A stretch of 41,276 bases of DNA from the NCBI GenBank assembly GCA_003576695.1, contig QOZQ01000007.1, positions 1 through 41,276 of the forward strand, read 5' to 3'. The notes below the pieces were generated by a model, which saw only the letters and a program-made list of their open reading frames with translations, was not told the origin of the DNA and did no database searches. This document shows, in pieces, positions 28,414 through 41,276 of the stretch. The DNA comes from Taklimakanibacter lacteus (GTDB lineage: Bacteria; Pseudomonadota; Alphaproteobacteria; Rhizobiales; Aestuariivirgaceae). The position numbers and the translations under genes are program-made. The stretch's first letter is position 1. Each line of letters starts with the position of its first letter.

Positions 28414-28563
28414 CGCATTGTCGGCTGTCATAGACGGCTGATCCCTGCGTCATGAGTGCGCCCACGCGTGCTTGAGCACGCAATGGCGCGTCGCGAGCGG
28501 CGACGCCGGCATTTCAGCGCTGGCGACCTGCGCCGCGCACCGAGACCGCAGAAGGGTTCGAGA

Positions 28564-30024
28564 GTGAACAATAGATCAAGTCGTCTCGTCTCGCGTCGGA
28601 GATTTCTCCTGGCGAGCGCAAGCATTGCCGTCAGTTCGTTGCCGTTCGTCCGGCCGTCGCGCGCCGCCACGGGAAACGAACTTCGTATCGTCGCCGCGCC
28701 AGCAAAGGCCTTGCTCATCGACAGGGATCGCCCACGAACCGCGGTGTGGGCCTATGACGGGACGATCCCAGGCCCAACGCTTCGCCTCAAGCAGGGTGAG
28801 GCGGTTCGCATCGTCGTCGAGAACCGGCTCGACGAGGATACGACGGTCCATTGGCACGGCATCCGTCTGCCGAATGCCATGGATGGCGTGCCCGGTTTGA
28901 CCCAGGCGCCGATCAAACCAGGCGAAACCTTCACCTATGAATTCACGCCACCTGACGCCGGCACGTTCTGGTACCACCCGCATGCCAACAGCCTCGAACA
29001 GCTCGGGCGCGGGCTTGCCGGCGCACTGATCATCGAGGAGCGGGAGCCCATCGTCGTCGATCGCGAGATGCTGTGGGTAGTCACCGACTGGCGCCTCACA
29101 TCAGGTGGCCAGATCGCCTCCGGCTTCGGCAACCGCATGGAAGCCGCAATGTCGGGCCGGATCGGCAACACCGTCACGCTGAACGGCGTCGTCCCCGAAG
29201 ATCAACCGGTGCGTGCCGGCGAGCGCATCCGCCTTCGCCTCGTCAACGCCTCGCTCGCGCGCATCATGGCGCTTCGCTTCGAGGGCCATCGGCCGGTCGT
29301 GATCGCGACCGACGGCCAGCCCTGCGATCCGCATGAGCCTGTGGGCGGCCGCCTCCTGCTCGGTCCCGCCATGCGCACCGACGTCGTCCTCGACATGGTG
29401 GGTGAGCCGGGCCGGCGCTATCGGATCATCGACGACTTCTACGAGGGTCTCGCCTACTGGCTCACCCACCTCGCCTACACCGATGACCCGCCGCTGCGCA
29501 GCGACCCTCCCGATGCCCCGTTGCGCCTGCCAGCCAACCCGCTGCCCGAGCCCGATCTTTCCAGTGCCCAACGTCACGAGCTGAAGCTCGAGGGCGGCAT
29601 GATGAGCGGCATGGGAATGATGGGCGGCGGCATGATGCAGGGCATGGGCGGCATGATGGGGCACGGCCGTGCCGTCTGGACCATCAACGGTAACTCCATG
29701 ACCGGCGATGGGCACGCCGGCATGCCGCCGCTCGTCACGCTCGCGCAAGGGCAAAACCACGTCATCACGCTGCGGAACGACACGGCTTGGTGGCATCCAA
29801 TGCACCTGCACGGCTTCAGCTACCGAGTGCTTGCCCGCAATGGAGCGCCGGTCCCGCACAACCAATGGGCCGACACCGTGCTCATGGCGCCCAGAGACTC
29901 GGTCGACATCGCTTTCGTCGCCGACAATCCCGGCGACTGGATGCTGCATTGTCACGTCACGGATCATCAGACCGCCGGGCTGATGACGGTGCTGCGTGTC
30001 GGTGGCGGGAGAAGCAAGACATGA
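28564..30024 (+). CDS. Tat-exported multicopper oxidase
   Basis: A 486-residue oxidase of the CopA/CueO type, likely oxidising Cu(I) in the periplasm. The N-terminus has a twin-arginine signal (SRRRFLLASASIAVSS). Copper ligands are in HWHG (96-99), YHPHAN (137-142), HPMHLHG and the final HCHVTDHQTAGLM. A Met-rich loop (GGMMSGMGMMGGGMMQGMGG) lies before the last ligand blocks, as in CueO where it feeds Cu(I). The start chosen is GTG 28564 with AAGGG upstream; the frame stays open to GTG 28456. It overlaps the cytochrome c gene by 4 bp. Confidence 0.92.
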   Translation: MNNRSSRLVSRRRFLLASASIAVSSLPFVRPSRAATGNELRIVAAPAKALLIDRDRPRTAVWAYDGTIPGPTLRLKQGEAVRIVVENRLDEDTTVHWHGIRLPNAMDGVPGLTQAPIKPGETFTYEFTPPDAGTFWYHPHANSLEQLGRGLAGALIIEEREPIVVDREMLWVVTDWRLTSGGQIASGFGNRMEAAMSGRIGNTVTLNGVVPEDQPVRAGERIRLRLVNASLARIMALRFEGHRPVVIATDGQPCDPHEPVGGRLLLGPAMRTDVVLDMVGEPGRRYRIIDDFYEGLAYWLTHLAYTDDPPLRSDPPDAPLRLPANPLPEPDLSSAQRHELKLEGGMMSGMGMMGGGMMQGMGGMMGHGRAVWTINGNSMTGDGHAGMPPLVTLAQGQNHVITLRNDTAWWHPMHLHGFSYRVLARNGAPVPHNQWADTVLMAPRDSVDIAFVADNPGDWMLHCHVTDHQTAGLMTVLRVGGGRSKT

Positions 30025-30725
30025 AGCGCTTCATCGCATCCGTCTCCGTCGGCTTTGCTCTCCTTTCGGCGAACAGCGCACCCGCAGCCGACGGCAATGC
30101 CAAGCGTGGCGGCGAGTTCTATCGCGCCTGCGTCGCGTGCCATTCGCTGGAACCTGGCGTTCACCTGACAGGCCCCAGCCTCGCAGGACTCTGGGACCGG
30201 CCGGCTGGCAGGATCGATAGCTTCGTTCGCTATTCGCCCGGGCTGAAGTCGGCCGACTTCTCCTGGGATGCGGACACGGTGAACGCCTGGCTTGCCGATC
30301 CGAATGCAATGGTGCCGGGCACGTACATGGTATTCCGCGGAATTGAGCGTGATCGGGACCGCGCAGATCTCATCGCCTTCCTGAGAATTGCCATGGCCCA
30401 GGGTGGGGCGAAGACGGTGGTCGAGCAGAAGCTCGTGCCTCCTGATTATGTCCGTGGTCAGCAACCGGAACCGCTGTCGGGCGCTCTCGAACACGCGCAA
30501 GTCACCGCGATCCGCCATTGCGCCGACAGCTACTTCATCGCGACGGCCGACGGCAGAGAGACCCCCTACTGGGAAATGAATGTCCGCCTGAAGGTGGATA
30601 GCCGCGGTACCGGGCCTGCACCTCGCAAGCCGGTCATCACCGGCGCCGGCATGATGGGCGACCGTGTCTCCGTGATCTTCTCCAGCATCGACGAGCTCGA
30701 GCGGTTCGTCGCGGAAAAATGCTGA
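30021..30725 (+). CDS. periplasmic cytochrome c family protein
   Basis: A 234-residue exported c-type cytochrome: signal peptide (RFIASVSVGFALLSANSAPA), a single haem motif CVACH (37-41) and the class I fold continuing through GPSLAGLWDRPAGR to the Met-ligand region (NAMVPGTYM). A second domain of about 100 residues, unassigned, follows (HCADSYFIATADGRETPYWE). Start ATG 30021 overlaps the oxidase stop (ATGA), so it is probably an electron partner of the oxidase. Confidence 0.85.
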   Translation: MKRFIASVSVGFALLSANSAPAADGNAKRGGEFYRACVACHSLEPGVHLTGPSLAGLWDRPAGRIDSFVRYSPGLKSADFSWDADTVNAWLADPNAMVPGTYMVFRGIERDRDRADLIAFLRIAMAQGGAKTVVEQKLVPPDYVRGQQPEPLSGALEHAQVTAIRHCADSYFIATADGRETPYWEMNVRLKVDSRGTGPAPRKPVITGAGMMGDRVSVIFSSIDELERFVAEKC

Positions 30726-30756
30726 ACGCAACAACCTCGACCGAAAGGACCTTGTC

Positions 30757-31194
30757 ATGCTTCGACTTCTCGCAATCGCCTCCCTGCTTTTCCTGGGACT
30801 TGCCCGCGCACACGCCGAGGACGTGCGCAAAGCCACACTCTACAAGAACCCGCAGTGCAGTTGCTGCGAAGGCTACGCAAACTATCTGCGCGCCAACGGC
30901 TTCAAGGTGGAGGTGAAGCCGACCAACGACCTCACCGAGATCAGCCGCAAGGCCGGCGTGCCTGAGGATTTTCAGGGCTGCCACACGATGTTCATCGACG
31001 GCTATGTCGTCGACGGCCACGTGCCGGTGAACACTGTCAACAAGCTCCTTAGGGAGCGCCCTGCCATCGCCGGCATCACCCTGCCCGGCATGCCGATGGG
31101 CTCGCCCGGCATGACCGGCGCCAAGACCGTTCCCTTCACGATCTACGCCGTCACAAAGGATGGCAAGGCGCCCACTGTCTACGCCACGGAATGA
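30757..31194 (+). CDS. DUF411 periplasmic metal-related protein
   Basis: A 145-residue exported protein with the DUF411 signature TLYKNPQCSCCEGYANYL (Cys34, Cys36, Cys37), a third Cys/His block GCHTMFIDGYVVDGHVP, and a Met-rich LPGMPMGSPGM segment. The family is typically found in copper resistance clusters and is thought to bind copper. Signal peptide: LRLLAIASLLFLGLARAHA. AAAGGA lies upstream of the ATG. It lies 31 bp after the cytochrome gene. Confidence 0.88.
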   Translation: MLRLLAIASLLFLGLARAHAEDVRKATLYKNPQCSCCEGYANYLRANGFKVEVKPTNDLTEISRKAGVPEDFQGCHTMFIDGYVVDGHVPVNTVNKLLRERPAIAGITLPGMPMGSPGMTGAKTVPFTIYAVTKDGKAPTVYATE

Positions 31195-31227
31195 GGGTGC
31201 CGTGACACGTCTAGGAAACCTGACGAG

Positions 31228-31842
31228 ATGACACACGATACAACACCGGTGGACTTGACTAATAGCTCCACTCGCGAGGTGGAAGCATCGCGGCGTCGCC
31301 TGCTCTACGTCGTTCCGATCGCAGCCTTTACCGCTTTGGCTGTCGTGCTCGCCTGGGGGCTTACGCGCAACGCGCAGGAGATTCCCTCGGCGCTGATCGG
31401 CAGGTCCGTTCCGGAATTCACCCTGCCACCGGTCAAGGGCCGAATCCTCGGCCTCTCGAGCGGCGATCTCCGCGGTGAGGTGTCGCTCGTCAACGTCTTC
31501 GCCTCTTGGTGCGTGGCGTGCCGCGCGGAGCATCCTCTGTTCATGCGCATTGCCGCGAACAAGACCGTACCGCTGCACGGCATCAACTATAAGGATCGGC
31601 CTGACGACGCGGCCAAATGGCTCGACACGCTGCGCGATCCCTACACTCGCACAGGCGCCGACTTCAATGGCCGTGTCGCCATCGACTGGGGCATCTATGG
31701 CGTGCCCGAGACCTTCGTGGTCAGCGCAGACGGGCGCATCGCCTACAAGCACATCGGGCCGGTCAGCGAGGAGGCTCTTGCGAACACAATCCTGCCTCTG
31801 ATCGCTCGGCTCCGGGCGGAAGCGACGGAGGCGCAACGATGA
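31228..31842 (+). CDS. DsbE/CcmG-like thiol:disulfide oxidoreductase
   Basis: A 204-residue membrane-tethered thioredoxin-fold protein. One N-terminal helix (LLYVVPIAAFTALAVVLAWG) is followed by SALIGRSVPEFTLPPVKG, the typical DsbE entry, the active site FASWCVACRAEHP (Cys95, Cys98) and the cis-Pro region YGVPETFVVSADG. It reduces haem-binding cysteines in apocytochrome c or keeps copper-site thiols reduced, taking electrons from CcdA, whose gene is 2.2 kb downstream in the same cluster. The final stop overlaps the next start by 4 bp. Confidence 0.88.
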   Translation: MTHDTTPVDLTNSSTREVEASRRRLLYVVPIAAFTALAVVLAWGLTRNAQEIPSALIGRSVPEFTLPPVKGRILGLSSGDLRGEVSLVNVFASWCVACRAEHPLFMRIAANKTVPLHGINYKDRPDDAAKWLDTLRDPYTRTGADFNGRVAIDWGIYGVPETFVVSADGRIAYKHIGPVSEEALANTILPLIARLRAEATEAQR

Positions 31843-32492
31843 GGTCACTCGCTGTTGCCCTTTTCGCTGTCGTGCTTGCATTCGCCGGACCTGCGCTGGG
31901 AGCGGAGGCGCCGCAGAACTTCGTGGTGCATCAGGAGCCGAAGGCCCTCCCGGAGCTGCGGTTCAAGGATGGCGACGGCCGACCCAAGAGCCTTTCCGAT
32001 TTCAACGGCAAGGTCGTGCTGCTCAATGTGTGGGCGACCTGGTGCGGTCCGTGCCGGAAGGAGATGCCGACGCTCGACCGCCTACAGGCCGGGCTCGGCG
32101 GGCCCGGTTTCGAGGTCGTTGTCCTCTCGATCGATCGCGCGGGCATCGATGTCGTGCGCAAGTTCTTCGGCGAGATCGGGATCAAGAACCTTACCCTCTA
32201 CATCGACGAGGGCGGCAAGGCGCTGCGCGAACTCGGCATTTTCGGCCTGCCGGCGACACTGCTGATCGATCGCGAGGGCCGCGAGATCGGGCGTCTCGTC
32301 GGGCCAGCCGATTGGGATACGCCGGAGATGGTCGCGTTTATCCGCGGTCATCTCGGTCAGAACTCCTGTTCTGAGAAGACAGAGCAGCAAAACGTGCCAG
32401 CTGCCGACGTCCCGCCTGGGCGCGACCGAGGTTCAGCACCGGCTCCCGAAGGCGGCGCGGCAAAAATCGAAAGCAAGGAGAAAGCCCCATGA
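31839..32492 (+). CDS. TlpA-like periplasmic thioredoxin with disordered tail
   Basis: A 217-residue exported thioredoxin-fold protein: signal peptide (RSLAVALFAVVLAFAGPALG), active site VWATWCGPCRKEMP (Cys69, Cys72), then LGIFGLPATLLIDREGREI with the cis-Pro. The last ~45 residues are low-complexity (APAPEGGAAKIESKEKAP) with one extra Cys, not typical of the family. It is coupled to the upstream DsbE-like gene (ATGA) and the downstream membrane gene (ATGA). Role: thiol reduction, probably for SCO or cytochrome copper/haem sites. Confidence 0.85.
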   Translation: MRSLAVALFAVVLAFAGPALGAEAPQNFVVHQEPKALPELRFKDGDGRPKSLSDFNGKVVLLNVWATWCGPCRKEMPTLDRLQAGLGGPGFEVVVLSIDRAGIDVVRKFFGEIGIKNLTLYIDEGGKALRELGIFGLPATLLIDREGREIGRLVGPADWDTPEMVAFIRGHLGQNSCSEKTEQQNVPAADVPPGRDRGSAPAPEGGAAKIESKEKAP

Positions 32493-32917
32493 CAGATACG
32501 AGATCACCTGAAGCAACCGAGACCCCGCTCTCCCGCGACATTCTCTATGCGCTCCGCTACTACCTCGGCGGCCGCGGGCTTATCGCCCTGGCGACCATCG
32601 CTCTCGCCACCGGCCTCGCCTTCAACTGGAGCTGGCTGGTCGCAGCCGGTATTGCGCCGTTGCTCATCACCGCGCTGCCCTGCCTCGTGATGTGCGCGCT
32701 TGGCCTGTGCGTGAACCGAATGGCCGGTCGCTCCTGCGCAACCGAGGCGGCAGCTGAAAAGACGCTCAAGCCTTCGGCCGTCGAGGTCACGGCACCCGTG
32801 TCGCTGGCCGAACCGCCGGCGGAGACCGAATGCCAGGCGAGCGTTCTCGTGCAGTTGCCGGCTGCTTTGCGCGAACCCGAATCCGAAACCACCCAAAGGA
32901 GTATGCACGATGCGTAA
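32489..32917 (+). CDS. Cys-rich two-helix membrane protein
   Basis: A 142-residue protein of uncertain family. Two membrane helices (GLIALATIALATGLAFNWSW and a second, AAGIAPLLITALPCLVMCALGLC) carry three cysteines in or at the end of the second helix, followed by NRMAGRSC and a ~60-residue acidic, proline-containing tail. Similar proteins occur in copper clusters of alphaproteobacteria; the helix-embedded cysteines suggest metal handling, but this is inference. It is coupled on both sides by overlaps (4 bp and 8 bp). Confidence 0.65.
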   Translation: MTDTRSPEATETPLSRDILYALRYYLGGRGLIALATIALATGLAFNWSWLVAAGIAPLLITALPCLVMCALGLCVNRMAGRSCATEAAAEKTLKPSAVEVTAPVSLAEPPAETECQASVLVQLPAALREPESETTQRSMHDA

Positions 32918-33194
32918 GTCCACGAAGATCCTCGCCGCCACCGCCGCAATCATCGCGGGGCTCGCGGTAGCGCCCGCCCTTTTTGCCCAGGGCTCCGGAA
33001 ATACCGGTGAGCGCACACCCATGATAGAGAACGGGATCATGGGCCAGGGTGGCATGATGGGCATGATGGGTCGGATGAGCCGAATGATGGAGAGCTGCAA
33101 CACCATGATGCAGTCCATGATGAACGATCGTGGCTCCGGCGCCCCCAACGACCGCGGCATCGATACGCCGCGCAAGCCGGACAGCAATGGCTGA
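32910..33194 (+). CDS. small Met-rich periplasmic protein
   Basis: A 94-residue protein with a signal peptide (KILAATAAIIAGLAVAPALFA) and a Met-rich core (MIENGIMGQGGMMGMMGRM followed by MMESCNTMMQSMM) with one Cys. Such Met clusters bind Cu(I) with thioether ligands in the oxidising periplasm. AAAGGAG lies about 8 nt upstream of the ATG. It overlaps the previous gene by 8 bp. A copper chaperone or buffer role is inference. Confidence 0.7.
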   Translation: MRKSTKILAATAAIIAGLAVAPALFAQGSGNTGERTPMIENGIMGQGGMMGMMGRMSRMMESCNTMMQSMMNDRGSGAPNDRGIDTPRKPDSNG

Positions 33195-33249
33195 GGCAGT
33201 CCGGTGGGCGACTGAGCGCCGCCACCCGCACTAAAAAAGGAATACAGCC

Positions 33250-33933
33250 ATGCGTAGCTTCCGAGCCCTGCTCGCTACGGTCCTCGCCGCTTTGGCATTC
33301 GCAGCGCCGGCGTCGGCTCACCATCCGGGGACCAATCTCGACGAGGTGATGGGCGACAAGGAGAAGTATTTCCAGGCGATCGACAAGCCCGCTCCATCCT
33401 TCGAGCTCGCCGATGCCGAGGGTCGACGCGTTCGATTGTCGGACTTCGCCGACAAGATCGTCGTCCTTCACTTCATCTATGCGAGCTGTCCCGACGTTTG
33501 TCCGCTGCATGCGGAGAAGATCGCCGAAATCCAGACTCTCATTAAAGACACGCCAATGAAAGGCATGGTGCAGTTCGTCACCATCACAACCGATCCGGCG
33601 AACGATACCGCCGAGGTCATGAAGGGATACGGACCGGCGCACGGGCTCGATTCGTCGAACTGGATCTTTCTCACAAAGCAGGCCGGCCAACCCGAAGACG
33701 TAACCAGGAAGCTGGCAGGCGAGTACGGGCTCAAGTTCGTGAAGACCGAAGACGGCCTGCAGATGCACGGAATGGTGACGCACATCATCGATCGCGGTGG
33801 TCGCCTAGCCGCGAAGTTTCACGGCCTGCGCTTCGAGCCGGTGAACATGGTCCTGTACATCAACGGCCTGACCAATGCCCAAGCACCGAAGCGGGACAGG
33901 AGCCTGTGGGAACGGATGAAGGATTGGTTCTGA
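33250..33933 (+). CDS. SCO family (SCO1/SenC/PrrC) protein
   Basis: A 227-residue exported thioredoxin-fold copper chaperone. The copper/thiol site is FIYASCPDVCPLHAEK (Cys80, Cys84), and the conserved His lies in GMVTHIIDRGG (His178). Signal peptide: LLATVLAALAFAAPASA, then HHPG at the mature N-terminus. SCO proteins load the CuA site of cytochrome oxidase or act in copper tolerance; here the second fits the cluster. It begins 55 bp after the Met-rich gene with AAGGAA upstream. Confidence 0.9.
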   Translation: MRSFRALLATVLAALAFAAPASAHHPGTNLDEVMGDKEKYFQAIDKPAPSFELADAEGRRVRLSDFADKIVVLHFIYASCPDVCPLHAEKIAEIQTLIKDTPMKGMVQFVTITTDPANDTAEVMKGYGPAHGLDSSNWIFLTKQAGQPEDVTRKLAGEYGLKFVKTEDGLQMHGMVTHIIDRGGRLAAKFHGLRFEPVNMVLYINGLTNAQAPKRDRSLWERMKDWF

Positions 33934-34010
33934 CATGCCCGACCCACGGCCCGTGCGGAGGCGAAAGATCGGCAGCAGGAACGCGCTTCGAAGCCAGGAC
34001 GTCTTGAGCT

Positions 34011-34751
34011 ATGCCTGAAATCTCCAATATCGGCATCCTGACCGCGTTTGCCGCCGGCCTGATCTCGTTCCTATCGCCTTGCGTGCTGCCGCTCGTGCCT
34101 GGCTACGTCTCCTACGTCGCAGGCCGCAGCGCTATTGAGAATTCGACCGGCGGCGCCATCGCGCTCAGGATGCCGGCTTTGGGTCTCAGCCTCTGTTTCG
34201 TCCTCGGCTTCTCAACCGTCTTCATCGTTCTAGGCGCAAGTGCGACGGCATTGGGCCAGCTTCTGATTAGCTATCGCTACGAACTCAACATCGTCGGTGG
34301 CGCAATCGTCATTCTCTTTGGACTGTTTCTGGCCGGTGTCGTCCGCCCTTCCTGGATGATGCGCGACGCGCGCTTCCATTCCATGCTTCCAAGCGGTCGG
34401 CCGATCTCGGCGTACGTGCTCGGGCTTGCCTTCGCTTTCGGCTGGACACCGTGCATCGGTCCGATTCTCGGCGCGATCCTGACCGTGGGCGCGGCCTCGG
34501 CAACCGTTGCCAGCGGCGTCACCTTGCTCGCTATCTATTCGCTTGGGCTCGGCGTGCCGTTCCTGCTGGCGGCCCTGTTCACCAACGTGCTGACTGCCCG
34601 CCTCAAGGCGATTGGCCGCATCGGGCGTCTACTGCAGATGGCCGCCGGCGGGATCATGATCCTGATGGGGCTCGCCATGATTACGGGTCGGCTATCCGCC
34701 TTTGCGTATTGGCTGCTCGACGTCTTCCCGGTGCTGGCCACGATCGGCTGA
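34011..34751 (+). CDS. ccdA: CcdA-type cytochrome c biogenesis/thiol transporter
   Basis: A 246-residue inner-membrane protein with six helices that carries reducing equivalents from cytosolic thioredoxin to the periplasm. The two redox cysteines are in the pseudo-repeated motifs LSPCVLPLVPGYVSYVAG (Cys24) and FGWTPCIGPILGAIL (Cys148). Length is standard. It completes the thiol-relay set with the DsbE-like and TlpA-like proteins upstream. The 77-bp gap before it shows no terminator. Confidence 0.92.
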   Translation: MPEISNIGILTAFAAGLISFLSPCVLPLVPGYVSYVAGRSAIENSTGGAIALRMPALGLSLCFVLGFSTVFIVLGASATALGQLLISYRYELNIVGGAIVILFGLFLAGVVRPSWMMRDARFHSMLPSGRPISAYVLGLAFAFGWTPCIGPILGAILTVGAASATVASGVTLLAIYSLGLGVPFLLAALFTNVLTARLKAIGRIGRLLQMAAGGIMILMGLAMITGRLSAFAYWLLDVFPVLATIG

Positions 34752-35527: not shown

Positions 35528-38272
35528 TCAAGTACGCTGGTGTAACGACTTATAGAATTGCCGCGGCGCGCCGGGACTCGGCTCGAACGTGAAGCACTCA
35601 CAATATTTATCAATCGACTGCATCACGCCCAGCAGGGATGGACCAGAGAAGCTAAGTGTTTGCCCTGTACCCCAATGACTGAGAAAATTTCCGACGATGG
35701 CCGCCATGTTGGCGTTCAGGCCAGCGACCTGCGCCGCGTCAAGCACGAGAGAGTTGGCAGCCTGGTGTAATTTCACCGCCGCTTCAATCGCCTGCAAGAA
35801 TTCGTGCGCCAACTGCTTGTTGTCATTGAACGCAACGTCGACCGGCACCGGTATGCGCAGCCGGCTGATCAGATCGCTGAGCCGGTATTCGAGATACTGG
35901 CGGACTCCTTCTTTGGCAAAATCCACCTGGCCCGCCTGCAGCATCGAGATCGTTTGATCGCGCACCTTGTTAACCGCACCAGCCTGCGGCAAAACGGCGA
36001 GCTGCGGAACGCCCTCCAGCCGCTGATGCCACCAGGTTCCTGTGTTGCTGTGTTTGTTGAACAGCTTCTCGAGCATGGTGTCGTGGCTGAGCAAAATGAC
36101 TTGCAGCCCGCCAACGTTGGCCGGCCGCGCGAATGTCGTTCTCAGCAGCTCCACGAGGAAATTCTGATGGCCCGCGTCGAAGCTTGACGTCACGTCGTCA
36201 AGCACGATGAACTTCGGCAGCCCGCCATAAAGAGACGCGGCCGCAAGATAGAGAGAAATCGCAAATGCGTTGCGGAAACTCTCCGAAAGCAACGCCTGCG
36301 GCGAAAGATTCGGCAGCCCATGGAAATCCGCGAGCGCGATCTGAAGATCTTCGCTGTTCGCACGTTTCGTCACGGTCGGGACAACGCCGAAGAACGAGAG
36401 CTTGTCGAAATATGACCTGAACACCGGATCGACAGCGGTCAACCGCGCCTTACTTAGAGCGCCTTCCGCGGCGCCGAAGCAATCGGAGGCGGAATCAAGG
36501 AAGCGCTTCACCCGCGTGACCAGGGCCTCCCGCACCTGTTCGGCGCCGGCGGCTTTTTCAGCCTCGGCAAGCTTGCACCAGTTGGTCTGCAGGCGACGCG
36601 CTGCCTCGACTTTGCGCGTAACCTCAACGGAGGATGGCGGCAGCTCCTTCTCAAGAGCGTCTTGTTCGGCAGCGAGATCTTGCTCTTTCTGATCGGCGCG
36701 CGAGCGTAACGTTTTCAGCCACTCCGCCAGCTTCCCCGCGTCCTGGGAGGCGAGTTCTCCTTTCTCAGCGCGCGGCCGTGACTTCGCAATTAGCCTGCTA
36801 TCGGGGCTTTCCTCCAACTTCGACTCCAGTCCGACAAGATCGGACCACCCGGCCTCGCCCCATTCTTTCGCGATCGCCGTGCCAGCTTGCTCCAGGGCAT
36901 CGAACTGCGAGAGCTTGGAGGCGATATGCGCTTTCAGGTCGTGCGAGCCCTTCTGATCGCAAAGCGGGCACAGGGCCGGATCGCTCCATTCCGGCAGACC
37001 AAGCGCCTTTTGCCCGGCCTGGAACAATGTCAACATGAGGTCGCCGGCGGTTTCCGCGAGCGCCTGATCGCGCGCCTTTGCGAGCGCCAAAAGCGCGGTC
37101 GCGCGCTCGGGTTTCGGAGCCTCGGCGTTGAGTTTCTTCAACTCCGCCCGCTCCCGAATGCATTCGCTCAGGCGATCCCGCTTGGGACCGCCTTCGGCCG
37201 CCTTCACCGCCTCTATGCAGGCATTGACGTCGATGTCGCGAAAAACCTTGTTCTCGCAGAGCGGCTTTAGTGGGCCGATCTGTTCCAGAGCATGGTGGCA
37301 CTTCGCCTGTGCGTCGGCACCACTTTGTGCCGCCAAAGGCTGCCCTACCAGCACCGCATAATCTGCCGCGATGGCGGCGCGCGCGTCCGTCGCTCCTTTC
37401 TCCTCCCGGCCGCGAAGCTGCGCATGCTCGGCTACCGCAAAATGGTTATTGAAGGCCCGCGTGTTCGCGATCGCCGCAAGCGACTGGCGCATGGCGCTGT
37501 ATTGGGCGAGACCGAGGAGGCCCGAGAAGGTGCGACCGCGATCCAGGGGCTTCGCTGAAATGAAACTTTGGAACGTATGACCGTCGAGAAGGACGAATTC
37601 GCGGTTCAGCAATCGCAAAATGCCCTCAGCGTCTGCCGACGGAGTCGATGATACGGTGCGATTGCCTTGCGCATCCCGCTTGACCGTTATGGCTATTTGC
37701 TGACCACCCGGCTCGGCGATCAGTTTGAGCGTGATCGTCGCTGTGCCCGACGTGTTGAATTTATTCAGATAGTAATCAGCGCCGCGCTCACTCGCCGGCA
37801 AGTCTTCAAGCCACGGAACCGCGCCGCAGATCGCGTACCGGACCGAATCGTAGACAGAACTCTTGCCGACGCCGTTCACCGCCGAGATGCTGTTGACCTT
37901 GTCGACATGAAACTTCAGTTCGAGCGGCTTGCCTTGATTGTTGATGCCGCGAAAGCCTTCGATCGAAAGGCCCTCAAGTAACCAACCAGTCGCAGAGATC
38001 GCGGCGGCGGCGGCCGCCGTCGCGCTTTGGCCGACAGCAGCCGATCCACTCGCGCTCGCGTTCGTCGCTGGGGATGGTTTCTCGGCGGCAGCAAACAAGT
38101 CGTTCAGAATATCCTGCTGGTTGTAGGTGCCCTGTGACAGCGCCTTGAATTGAAGCTGCAGTTCTGCAGCGAGCGCGACGTCCCCTTCCCCCATGTGAAT
38201 GAAGAAAGCCGCGACATTCGCTTCAAAGATACTGTTCTCGTCGAACGTGAAGTTCCCGCTTGTTGTCGTCAT
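35528..38272 (-). CDS. SMC/Rad50-like AAA ATPase, last gene of a putative defence operon
   Basis: A 914-residue ATPase. Residues 1-95 form an extra N-terminal part ending in an Ala/Ser-rich linker. The ATPase head starts at LSIEGFRGINN with Walker A NGVGKSS (133-139). A moderately long, charged helical region (about 260-620) contains a single CPLC pair (Cys435, Cys438) resembling a zinc hook. The C-terminal head has the signature-like LLSESFRNAF (661-670), Walker B FIVLDDVTSSFD (688-699) and LLSHD (His730), followed by ~180 unassigned residues. The start at 38272 has GAGGCGG close upstream; the frame is open to 38467 but that runs through the PIN gene. It lies 7 bp after the PIN gene. Likely DNA-sensing or nuclease-partner ATPase; role inferred. 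Confidence 0.85.
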   Translation of the reverse strand: MTTTSGNFTFDENSIFEANVAAFFIHMGEGDVALAAELQLQFKALSQGTYNQQDILNDLFAAAEKPSPATNASASGSAAVGQSATAAAAAAISATGWLLEGLSIEGFRGINNQGKPLELKFHVDKVNSISAVNGVGKSSVYDSVRYAICGAVPWLEDLPASERGADYYLNKFNTSGTATITLKLIAEPGGQQIAITVKRDAQGNRTVSSTPSADAEGILRLLNREFVLLDGHTFQSFISAKPLDRGRTFSGLLGLAQYSAMRQSLAAIANTRAFNNHFAVAEHAQLRGREEKGATDARAAIAADYAVLVGQPLAAQSGADAQAKCHHALEQIGPLKPLCENKVFRDIDVNACIEAVKAAEGGPKRDRLSECIRERAELKKLNAEAPKPERATALLALAKARDQALAETAGDLMLTLFQAGQKALGLPEWSDPALCPLCDQKGSHDLKAHIASKLSQFDALEQAGTAIAKEWGEAGWSDLVGLESKLEESPDSRLIAKSRPRAEKGELASQDAGKLAEWLKTLRSRADQKEQDLAAEQDALEKELPPSSVEVTRKVEAARRLQTNWCKLAEAEKAAGAEQVREALVTRVKRFLDSASDCFGAAEGALSKARLTAVDPVFRSYFDKLSFFGVVPTVTKRANSEDLQIALADFHGLPNLSPQALLSESFRNAFAISLYLAAASLYGGLPKFIVLDDVTSSFDAGHQNFLVELLRTTFARPANVGGLQVILLSHDTMLEKLFNKHSNTGTWWHQRLEGVPQLAVLPQAGAVNKVRDQTISMLQAGQVDFAKEGVRQYLEYRLSDLISRLRIPVPVDVAFNDNKQLAHEFLQAIEAAVKLHQAANSLVLDAAQVAGLNANMAAIVGNFLSHWGTGQTLSFSGPSLLGVMQSIDKYCECFTFEPSPGAPRQFYKSLHQRT

Positions 38273-38279
38273 CGCCGCC

Positions 38280-38912
38280 TCACTGCGCTTCCGACGCCTG
38301 CCGCGCGACCGTGCGCGAACGCCGCGGCAAGCTCGCGCAAAGCTGCGCTCTCTCGCTGCCGACCAGGTCAACGACCCATTTCTCATGCTGAGGCAATACA
38401 CGCATCCGAGCGTTCTGAAGCGCGGCAAACACCGCATCTGCAAGGGCGGCGGCCCCCAAAGCTGCAATCACCGCGTCGTGGCAGAGCACATCGACCGTGC
38501 TGGCGACCTTCGTTGCCGGAAACCGCTCTGAGCAAATTCGTCGTGCCTTGCGCTCGTCAATTACGGCAACGGCCTTTCGCTCCACCGCATATGCAAGAGT
38601 AGTCGCTTCGCCGTCATCGAGAGTGTCCGGCCCATGACCGATTACGAGATTCTCGAAGTTGGGCTGAGAAAGACCGGATATATTCTCAACTCGAACGACG
38701 CCGTCGGCCACCAGCTTTGCCATGAGTTCGCCGTCATTGCGCCCGCTCTGCGAGTCCTCCTGCAGCTCCTCCAAAACAACGTCCGTCACGATCACCTCAT
38801 TGGGCAAAGTGCGCAAGATTGCCCCCGCGCACCCCGTGGCGTTGAGGTTGATAGCGGTGCTGGCATCCAGCACGAGCTGCGTCTCGGAGTCAGCTAGGCA
38901 GGAGAGCCCCAT
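38280..38912 (-). CDS. PIN-like nuclease domain protein
   Basis: A 210-residue protein with PIN-like features: LVLDASTAINL with the first Asp (Asp16), VIVTDVVLEELQED with an acidic Glu, and LDDGEATTLAYAVERKAVAVIDERKARR, matching the GE-x-Ala / V-x-D-D/E-x-x-A motifs of DUF3368/DUF4411-like PIN proteins that cleave RNA. Start at 38912 has GAGG upstream and overlaps the end of the XRE-ImmA gene by 23 bp. PIN toxins beside XRE-ImmA antitoxin-like proteins are a known pairing, so it may be the effector of the operon. The C-terminal 70 residues are unassigned. Confidence 0.7.
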   Translation of the reverse strand: MGLSCLADSETQLVLDASTAINLNATGCAGAILRTLPNEVIVTDVVLEELQEDSQSGRNDGELMAKLVADGVVRVENISGLSQPNFENLVIGHGPDTLDDGEATTLAYAVERKAVAVIDERKARRICSERFPATKVASTVDVLCHDAVIAALGAAALADAVFAALQNARMRVLPQHEKWVVDLVGSERAQLCASLPRRSRTVARQASEAQ

Positions 38913-40071
38913 CGGCCTCGCCCCCTTCTGAAATCTCCAGATTGTCGAGCATCTTCCGCAACTCGACTCGATCAATATGCAGCATCCGCATCAATTGGCC
39001 TTCACTCAGCAATCCACGACGCCACGCCTCTCCTGCCAATAGCGCAAGCCGCAACGTCGTAGGCCGGCGCGAGTCCGCTTTCTGAGCATCTGGCACGCTC
39101 AAATCGCCGAGAACCTGCGCTGCCTGCTGGTCGGTAATCCCATCGTTCGCCTGAAACCACTCCCAGGTGCCCGGCTTGGTGAGCTTTAGTTCCTCAAGTC
39201 GACGCACCATTGCCTCGCGCGAGACGCCAAAGGAATGAGCGAGAATGATGACGTGGCGACGCGTAAGCTTGTCCGAGCCCAACGTGACTTCCTTGAATTT
39301 CTGCATGACGGCTCGCGCGGGCGTCAAGAATGCGATTCCAAAGGCGGTGGCGTAACGCTCCTCTCGCGAGTTCTCAAAATGATCGAGTTCAAGAACTTCC
39401 GGCTGACGGCGCGTCGACACGAGGTGACCAAGTTCGTGCGCCGCCGTCTGAGTTCTTCGTTCGCGAGGATGGTTCGCATTCAGCATGATGCACGCGCCAA
39501 GAGCATCATCATAGGCGAATAGCCCGGAAATCTTTCCGTCGAGCCGGCGAATGTAGACCCGAACGCCTAGCTCCATTTCCAACAGTGTAACGATATCGGT
39601 CACGGGACTGAGGCCCAGGCCCAGCCATTGCCGAAGCTCAAGTGCATCCTGCTCGGCCTGCGCGCGGACATCGCCTGGCACTATCGAACGCTCAGGAGGA
39701 TAATTGCGTTGCCGCTGAACGCCGAGCAATCCTTCCAGCTCGACTTCAGCTTTTGCGAGATTGGAAAGTTTCTGGACCGCGTCCTGGATAGGATCCTTAT
39801 CTTGAAAGAGCTTGCGGAATTTTGGAGTGAGGTCCGCCTTGACGGCTTCCTGCCGCAACATCTCGTTGATGGACGTCTTGTATAGTTTTGCAAGCGAACG
39901 CAGCTCTTCCAGCTTGATACGACGCTGTCCTTGTTCGATCGCAACCAACGTCGTCCGCGCAATATTCACCGCACTAGCCGCATCCGCTTGAGTCAAACCA
40001 GCCCGATCACGGGCTTCGCGCAGCCGCTCGCCGACTTCCAAAGGCGTCATGCTTTCAAGTGCGCCATTCAT
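38890..40071 (-). CDS. XRE HTH plus ImmA/IrrE metallopeptidase
   Basis: A 393-residue two-domain protein. The N-terminal HTH (about 11-68) reads VGERLREARDRAGLTQADAA and then RTTLVAIEQGQRRIKLEEL. The second domain (about 170-290) is an ImmA/IrrE (DUF955) zinc peptidase with HELGH (His212-His216) and downstream Glu-containing helix ENSREERYATAFGIAFL. Such fusions repress their own operon and are thought to cut a partner after a damage or phage signal. The start 40071 overlaps the QueC-like stop (ATGA). It may control the whole operon and the PIN protein; that is inference. Confidence 0.88.
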   Translation of the reverse strand: MNGALESMTPLEVGERLREARDRAGLTQADAASAVNIARTTLVAIEQGQRRIKLEELRSLAKLYKTSINEMLRQEAVKADLTPKFRKLFQDKDPIQDAVQKLSNLAKAEVELEGLLGVQRQRNYPPERSIVPGDVRAQAEQDALELRQWLGLGLSPVTDIVTLLEMELGVRVYIRRLDGKISGLFAYDDALGACIMLNANHPRERRTQTAAHELGHLVSTRRQPEVLELDHFENSREERYATAFGIAFLTPARAVMQKFKEVTLGSDKLTRRHVIILAHSFGVSREAMVRRLEELKLTKPGTWEWFQANDGITDQQAAQVLGDLSVPDAQKADSRRPTTLRLALLAGEAWRRGLLSEGQLMRMLHIDRVELRKMLDNLEISEGGEADGALLPS

Positions 40072-41276
40072 TGCGTCCACCCAACCCAGCCGGCTATGAA
40101 TGATTTTGGTCCGAGTGACGCCATGAATTCCGTCCATTCCCTTTCATGCTGTAAGAGTAAGCGATCGATCTTTGAGCGGATTTCCTTCTCCGGAAGTCCG
40201 ATGACTTCCGCGAGTTGGAACGCGTGAAAGTCTAACGATTGGTCAAAGTGCGGCGCGCGGCGCAGCGAGGCCAGATGGTCGAGATGCAACGCGCCTGCGA
40301 TCGCATAGTGACGCTGCGCCCGCGTAATCTTGGTGAACCCCTGAGCTGCGCCATCCGCAAAATCGGCAGCAGCGAGGTTCTCCCAGATATAGATGTCATT
40401 CGACTCATCTAGTCCTGCCGCATGAAGGCTCATACGCCGAAGCATACAGGCCGCGCAGATGCCGCACTGACGGCGGTGACCGCCCACGGAGACTTGTCGA
40501 TTATCCTGCCAACACGAGCGCGTTATACGCCATTCCGACGAGCGGCTATTTAAGGCAGCGTAAGCCGCGAGCGTTTCGCCCTTCGTGTACCACAGGCGCG
40601 GAAACTCGAATGCGATGTCGCGGCCAAGCAGCGCTTTGAGGAAGGCCGACATCTTCTTCGTGAAACGCGGATGGTTGCGGAAATCTTCATAGGCTTGCCC
40701 TACCGTCACAAGAGCTGGCCCGAGGGCACCCTGCCCGCTTTCCGGAACAAACACTTTGTTCGCCTTCGCGAGATAGGCCGCGAGCCCGCTCAAAACGGCG
40801 AATTTAAAACCACGCGAACGCGCGCTGCTTTCCACAAACCGCCGTTCAGATGGACGGACCTTATACGGTACGGCTGTAAACGGCTCTTTCCGACCGTGGC
40901 CGTCCTTCGGACGATCCGAAGTCTTTGGTCCAAGACGAACGCGGACAATTTTGTTGCCGTGTTCTTTCGCGAGAAGGGCGCCAACCGCGCGGGAGTCCAG
41001 ACCATCGCTGAAGGGCACCACACCGAGTGCCTCGGTCGGAAGGTTGAAAAGTCCCTGCTGGGGCGAAGGGGCATCCTTCTTACGATTGACGAACGTTACC
41101 TGCCACCGATCCCCGGTCAGCAGCTCCAAGGCATCATGTAGGCTGTCATGAACGGCCTTACTGCGCCAATGCGCAGGATTGTGGACGGGAAGATTGAGGG
41201 CGATATCCCGGCCCCAGCCAAGCGCCGGTCGCCGCTGCGTCTTGTCGCAAAACTCAACGGCCGCCGCCAATAGCAG
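40068..41276 (-). CDS. QueC-like PP-loop protein (QatC-like), 5' end outside window
   Basis: At least 402 codons, open to the right edge, so the N-terminus is missing. The PP-loop ATP pyrophosphatase motif is VVPFSDGLDSRAVGAL, a GQGALGP motif follows, and a four-Cys site (C253 then CGICAAC, counting from TTG 41270) matches the zinc site of QueC, which makes the nitrile of 7-cyano-7-deazaguanine. The extended N- and C-terminal parts (LNLPVHNPAHW; LHLDHLASLRRAPHF) are unlike housekeeping QueC and resemble the defence-associated QatC. No queuosine genes are near. It is the first visible gene of the operon and is coupled to the XRE-ImmA gene by a 4-bp overlap. Confidence 0.8.
   Translation of the reverse strand: MLLAAAVEFCDKTQRRPALGWGRDIALNLPVHNPAHWRSKAVHDSLHDALELLTGDRWQVTFVNRKKDAPSPQQGLFNLPTEALGVVPFSDGLDSRAVGALLAKEHGNKIVRVRLGPKTSDRPKDGHGRKEPFTAVPYKVRPSERRFVESSARSRGFKFAVLSGLAAYLAKANKVFVPESGQGALGPALVTVGQAYEDFRNHPRFTKKMSAFLKALLGRDIAFEFPRLWYTKGETLAAYAALNSRSSEWRITRSCWQDNRQVSVGGHRRQCGICAACMLRRMSLHAAGLDESNDIYIWENLAAADFADGAAQGFTKITRAQRHYAIAGALHLDHLASLRRAPHFDQSLDFHAFQLAEVIGLPEKEIRSKIDRLLLQHEREWTEFMASLGPKSFIAGWVGWTQ

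Follow-up and report, generated by a model that had tools for sequence, protein, structure and literature searches.

The window examined here covers positions 1 to 41,276 of a 353,333-base contig (QOZQ01000007.1; C22, locus L015) of Taklimakanibacter lacteus, from a genome that is 99.72% complete, and its end cuts into a well-defined, widespread and mobile four-gene cassette, H-Q-X-P. The cassette encodes, in this order, a small protein (H), a QatC-like enzyme (Q), a helix-turn-helix protein with an ImmA-like protease domain (X) and a PIN-fold protein (P), and it is best regarded as a new form of QueC-family immunity (Qat / type IV CBASS), to which a toxin-antitoxin pair resembling RosmerTA is coupled. 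That the four genes form one unit is almost certain, a role in defence is probable, and to the whole chain proposed below, in which a QatBC-like core joined to the XRE-ImmA/PIN pair would release a toxin upon a phage trigger, we assign a probability of about 45%. An earlier note on this DNA had described four minus-strand open reading frames (ORFs), with overlaps of 4 and 23 bp and a 7-bp gap, as one candidate defence operon with a QueC-like protein, an SMC-like ATPase and, among the visible genes, no QatB; the ORFs and overlaps are present and the QueC-like defence candidate stands, but the ATPase does not belong to it and a counterpart of QatB is probably present after all.

The features of the cassette are as follows, with fractions referring to 93 cassette loci.

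Contig 41441-42019, just beyond the window end, minus strand: H, first cassette gene, 192 aa, beginning MSDGPHKSL
40068..41276, start at contig 41444, minus strand: Q, QatC-like protein with PP-loop and zinc site; full length 458 aa, interrupted by the window end
40992..41009, minus strand: Q PP-loop S-D-G-L-D-S, at the SGGxDS position; S146, G148, D150 and S151 each 93/93
40677..40691, minus strand: Q Y-E-D-F-R, counterpart of the QueC/Cap9 Y-x-D; Y 88/93, D 93/93, R 93/93
40446..40514, minus strand: Q zinc site C311...C327-x2-C330-x2-C333; four Cys each 93/93
38890..40071, minus strand: X, XRE helix-turn-helix and ImmA/IrrE-like (M78) metallopeptidase; PADLOC RmrA-like, 7e-27
39424..39438, minus strand: X HELGH zinc-protease motif; H, E and H each 92/93
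38280..38912, minus strand: P, PIN-fold protein, 210 aa; acidic residues D16, E49, D100 and D119
Contig 42056-42068, beyond the window end, upstream of H: palindrome TTGACATTGTCAG, overlapping a -35-like hexamer

Conservation and spread of the cassette

Iterated hidden Markov models place H, Q and X in 93/93 loci and P in 89/93, always in one gene order and on one strand, a co-occurrence that reaches well beyond this strain. These loci comprise eight genomes positive for the PIN query, five of 25 plasmid records and the best 80 of 221 relatives confirmed in species genomes; four pairs are identical (in one pair, L017 and L038, both are the same contig), leaving 89 distinct cassettes, 85 of them with P, and the representatives stand for 50 of the 54 clusters obtained at 70% Q identity. 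Among the loci without a full P, L066 and L081 stop inside X and L040 stops 30 bases past X, while the P region of L065 holds a 26-residue match only, P being cut short in what is apparently a broken copy. The H gene of L092, spread over two frames, likewise appears broken.

Within the order, 8/297 genomes are positive with the PIN query, including that of the window. On plasmids PIN occurs in 26 records, several of them near-identical to one another, and Q at a coverage of at least 80% in 25, each also PIN-positive, the remaining PIN record being NZ_CP069355; the five plasmid records inspected all show a small hypothetical gene followed by the QatC-like, XRE-ImmA and PIN genes. Among the 80 species-genome loci, four or more belong to records with chromosome in their title. 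By record title, the carriers include Alpha-, Beta- and Gammaproteobacteria, Acidobacteria, Caldilineaceae (Chloroflexi), Candidatus Entotheonella, Geomonas, Binatia and Planctomycetales, with many metagenome-assembled genomes (MAGs), and under labels assigned from these titles the nearest Q comes from another phylum in 11 of the 21 non-Alphaproteobacteria loci examined, which is consistent with horizontal transfer or MAG mis-binning. Alignment of Q or H found no relative on viral contigs, nor did Q find one in 50,697 phage records. None of the model matches obtained from PADLOC, NCBIfam or Pfam showed the cassette as a system, and it is undescribed among the matches listed by literature searches whose coverage left out most subscription papers and bioRxiv.

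The H-Q and X-P pairs

The solved proteins nearest to Q are QatC (2.6e-33) and then QueC (1.8e-4). Q matches the PADLOC QatC model at 8.6e-30, has the QatC N-terminal extension region in common from about residue 60, and carries, recognisable by eye, several of the cluster-2 motifs, namely DxWxxxF, RxRxxxF, ExG, HP and P(x)4TK (PMC13329287). The window-truncated protein scores 109.7 against a cut-off of 280 for the NCBIfam QatC model and 32.8 bits for PF06508, below the canonical QueC level, genomes that pass 1e-30 mostly exceeding 180 bits. The second residue of the PP-loop is D in 66, E in 17, N in 9 and K in 1 of the 93 loci, and is never that of SGG. The base-recognition site reads T-x-T in QatC and Y-x-D in QueC and Cap9 (PMC13279940), and the Y-x-D of Q is placed opposite YPDCR of QueC 2pg3 by a weak alignment (21.8 bits).

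The ATG of Q (contig 41444) overlaps the end of H, a gene whose product has an almost invariant N-terminus across cassette loci. In 91/91 parsed loci the initiator is followed by S, T or P and then D-G-P, although the start pattern itself required DGP and so forces D3-G4-P5; L012, which starts RDGI, and L092 are left out of these statistics. The alignments of Q, X and P begin at the longest ORF, so that their low first-column values (0.10-0.50) make a weak N-terminal control; with trimmed starts, P holds no invariant column from M1 to D16. P had been considered as the tagged protein, but the MGLSC start of the window's P is unconserved among relatives, and the idea was therefore moved to H. 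At the other end of H (contig 41441-41500; L015:8442-8501) lies a partly conserved tail of the G-L-D-D-G-V-x-L type, predicted with low confidence and perhaps disordered, which may form a second binding motif.

H is probably the counterpart of QatB, like it in position and weakly like it in fold, and the QatB that the earlier note had missed would thus lie just past the window end. Descent visible in sequence was dropped as an argument, given that an alignment of 91 H with five QatB by hhalign yields a probability of 0.3%. Foldseek returned nothing at E 0.001 or better for the H model, with QatB outside the best 50 matches listed; only in a second look, with VIA, did a QatB-QatC entry rank first. 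Chain A of 9y01/9y02 was taken as QatB from the entry titles, the residue range (64-253) and PMC13279940, where QatB residues 1-63 are reported as unresolved; sequence searches of the PDB with two QatB listed 9zee and 9vll, and not 9y01/9y02.

The XRE-ImmA and PIN genes are present as the earlier note had read them, and are better read as a toxin-antitoxin-like pair. P combines the PIN fold with its acidic residues, and X, as judged from its domains and motif, would be an ImmA-protease antitoxin with a helix-turn-helix of the RosmerTA kind, with E260 (91/93) as a possible third ligand; PIN-like domains are associated with ImmA-type antitoxins (PMC10440598). The palindrome TTGACATTGTCAG stands mostly about 49 bp upstream of H and recurs, with at most one mismatch, in 71/91 loci (exact in 45), 68/87 distinct cassettes and 42/53 representatives, and sites of this type elsewhere number 14 further in 3.33 Mb, both strands counted. 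We infer that X binds this palindrome. By eye, repeated TTCACCGC-like inverted repeats are seen upstream of H in some Fic-associated loci.

Proposed mechanism, alternatives and neighbouring genes

In the proposed chain, Q would activate a carboxylate of the 7-deazaguanine type, as Cap9 does, and would conjugate it to the N-terminal Ser/Thr of H after Met removal. X would repress the operon at TGACATTGTCA and neutralise P. Upon phage infection, the H-Q complex would alter X, the protease domain of X would free both promoter and toxin, and P, as a PIN RNase, would then halt the infected cell. By analogy with Cap9, the tagging of H by Q, taken alone, is on balance likely. More tentatively, the cassette might represent a third branch of QueC-family immunity, in which a QatC-clade enzyme retaining nucleobase recognition would tag an orphan protein at its N-terminal Ser/Thr and the tag would act as the safety catch of a toxin-antitoxin pair.

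The supply of the base is the weak point of this chain, as neither canonical QueC nor QueD was found in the window's host, nor any clear QueE (both QueE models miss G101 and G304, although these have QueC); TGT is present. Canonical QueC and a QueD-family protein are each found in 40/48 cassette hosts (the eight PIN-positive genomes and 40 species-genome hosts not titled MAG), and canonical QueC in 137/297 genomes of the order, 5/8 carriers among them. A strict need for host deazaguanine synthesis was considered and is unsupported by this distribution of QueC, QueD and QueE. In a host without these genes the base would thus be imported, another substrate would be used, or the cassette would be idle. 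It may be speculated that, where hosts make no deazaguanine, which appears to be the case for the window's own, the nucleobase is imported or supplied by phages with 7-deazaguanine DNA, the cassette then detecting phage DNA modification.

Several alternatives to this chain can be weighed. The cassette could be a Qat subtype in which H-Q alone is the defence effector and X-P regulates the operon or forms a second line, as might be expected from the defence that QatBC alone provides against lambda vir (PMC13279940), from the QatB-like position and weakly QatB-like fold of H, and from an H-Q coupling that is the tightest of six pairs. Yet the constancy of X and P comes close to that of H-Q, and their protease and PIN residues are conserved, which suggests that both are needed; the subtype is fairly unlikely. 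Less likely again is a plasmid or integrative and conjugative element stabilisation (addiction) module, with X-P as toxin-antitoxin, H-Q as control layer and no phage role. The occurrence on plasmids and the architecture of X-P would suit such a module, but the loci on chromosome-titled records would not, QatC and Cap9, the most pertinent QueC relatives in the papers cited, serve phage defence (PMC13279940, PMC13329287), and the flanks of the cassette are rich in PADLOC families. At 1e-10, 130 flanking proteins match 85 of these families, including GajB, AbiEi/AbiEii, SoFic, PD-T4-6 and PD-T7-5, and 130 control proteins match 8, counting families and not proteins; the former are 130 of 151 mechanically called flanking ORFs from L031-L110, and the latter, 130 out of 147 candidates, are from 20 stretches chosen arbitrarily in the eight PIN-positive genomes and not from other mobile elements.

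Production by Q of a free 7-deazaguanine base, destined for tRNA or DNA, is very improbable: Q retains the QueC Y-x-D motif, but also the region of the QatC N-terminal extension, a queC mutant does not regain queuosine with QatC (PMC13329287), and family scans of the cassette proteins contain no base-exchange enzyme. The four-gene unit of the earlier note, with QueC-like, XRE-ImmA, PIN and ATPase genes together, is refuted as a conserved unit; the 7-bp PIN-ATPase gap makes co-transcription likely, but the ATPase is excluded from the cassette because its homologs are absent from all 92 other loci (0/92, each with up to about 10 kb of flank) and P tends to be the final gene, only 17/89 loci having an ORF of 100 aa or more on the same strand that starts -40 to +150 bp from the PIN stop. 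Homologs occur in six other genomes of the 297, none of them PIN-positive.

35528..38272, minus strand: SMC/AAA-like ATPase, 914 aa, neighbouring cargo outside the cassette; PADLOC LmuB 3e-19, mad3 3e-12

Relatives of the ATPase, 62-63% identical, are found in two other genomes (L111:5967-8723, L112:5851-8622), in L111 beside a helicase-nuclease that shares 60% identity with the helicase-nuclease encoded close to the cassette of the window's contig. Upstream of H this contig encodes a SoFic-like Fic protein, a type IIG/ISP restriction enzyme and the helicase-nuclease. The Fic gene (L015:9129-10304, plus strand) is divergent from H and has relatives of 67-83% identity near the cassette in five loci (L031, L032, L039, L058 and L060); the restriction enzyme-methyltransferase gene (L015:10286-13612, plus strand) adjoins it, with an 80.5% identical relative near the L039 cassette. 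Left of the cassette, window positions 28456-34751 hold genes for a multicopper oxidase and a DsbD-like protein and, by eye, thioredoxin/SCO-type genes, which suggests metal or redox cargo.

Relation to known systems and significance

Like Qat (qatABCD), the cassette has a QatC-like enzyme and, directly upstream with a 4-bp overlap, a partner gene whose product, putatively helical, has a conserved N-terminal tail and a downstream Trp. Unlike Qat, its partner starts M-S/T-D-G-P and not with the MGTS of QatB, the second PP-loop residue is not G, Y-x-D replaces T-x-T, and XRE-ImmA and PIN genes are added. Blastp (1e-3) of the ORFs of the 93 loci with five queries each for QatA and QatD gave one short QatA-matching ORF only, in L023 and away from the cassette, and control Qat proteins found each other in 20/20 ordered pairs per family; with QatB equally unfound by blastp, the description of a QueC-like candidate defence operon of the modifier-plus-nuclease type, distinct from plain Qat, holds. 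With type IV CBASS Cap9 the cassette shares a QueC-family enzyme, base recognition through Y-x-D and a partner whose N-terminal motif is conserved, but Q is a 458-aa protein with a QatC-like N-terminal extension and H starts with S/T and not G; CD-NTase and Cap10 are absent from the family scans of H, Q, X and P, no dedicated search having been made. RosmerTA (RmrA/RmrT) and other ImmA-antitoxin systems resemble X-P in setting a helix-turn-helix and ImmA-like protease beside a toxin-like nuclease, and differ in the H-Q pair constantly upstream. P matches models of the PADLOC candidate PDC-S70 (best 6.3e-12), a comparison of protein models and not of system rules, and five H relatives scanned against PADLOC gave no convincing match.

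In the papers cited, type IV CBASS is shown to conjugate a nucleobase to the N-terminus of a protein; for Qat this conjugation is inferred, and in vitro reconstitution failed (PMC13279940). As a further case, widespread and with the canonical base-recognition residues retained, the cassette may make the reaction easier to observe. The cassette also suggests that the neighbourhoods of PF06508 'QatC' proteins may hold more than Qat; qatA is reported near 34.3% of cluster 2 (PMC13329287). If the proposed chain is true, it would link nucleobase modification to a toxin-antitoxin-like effector.
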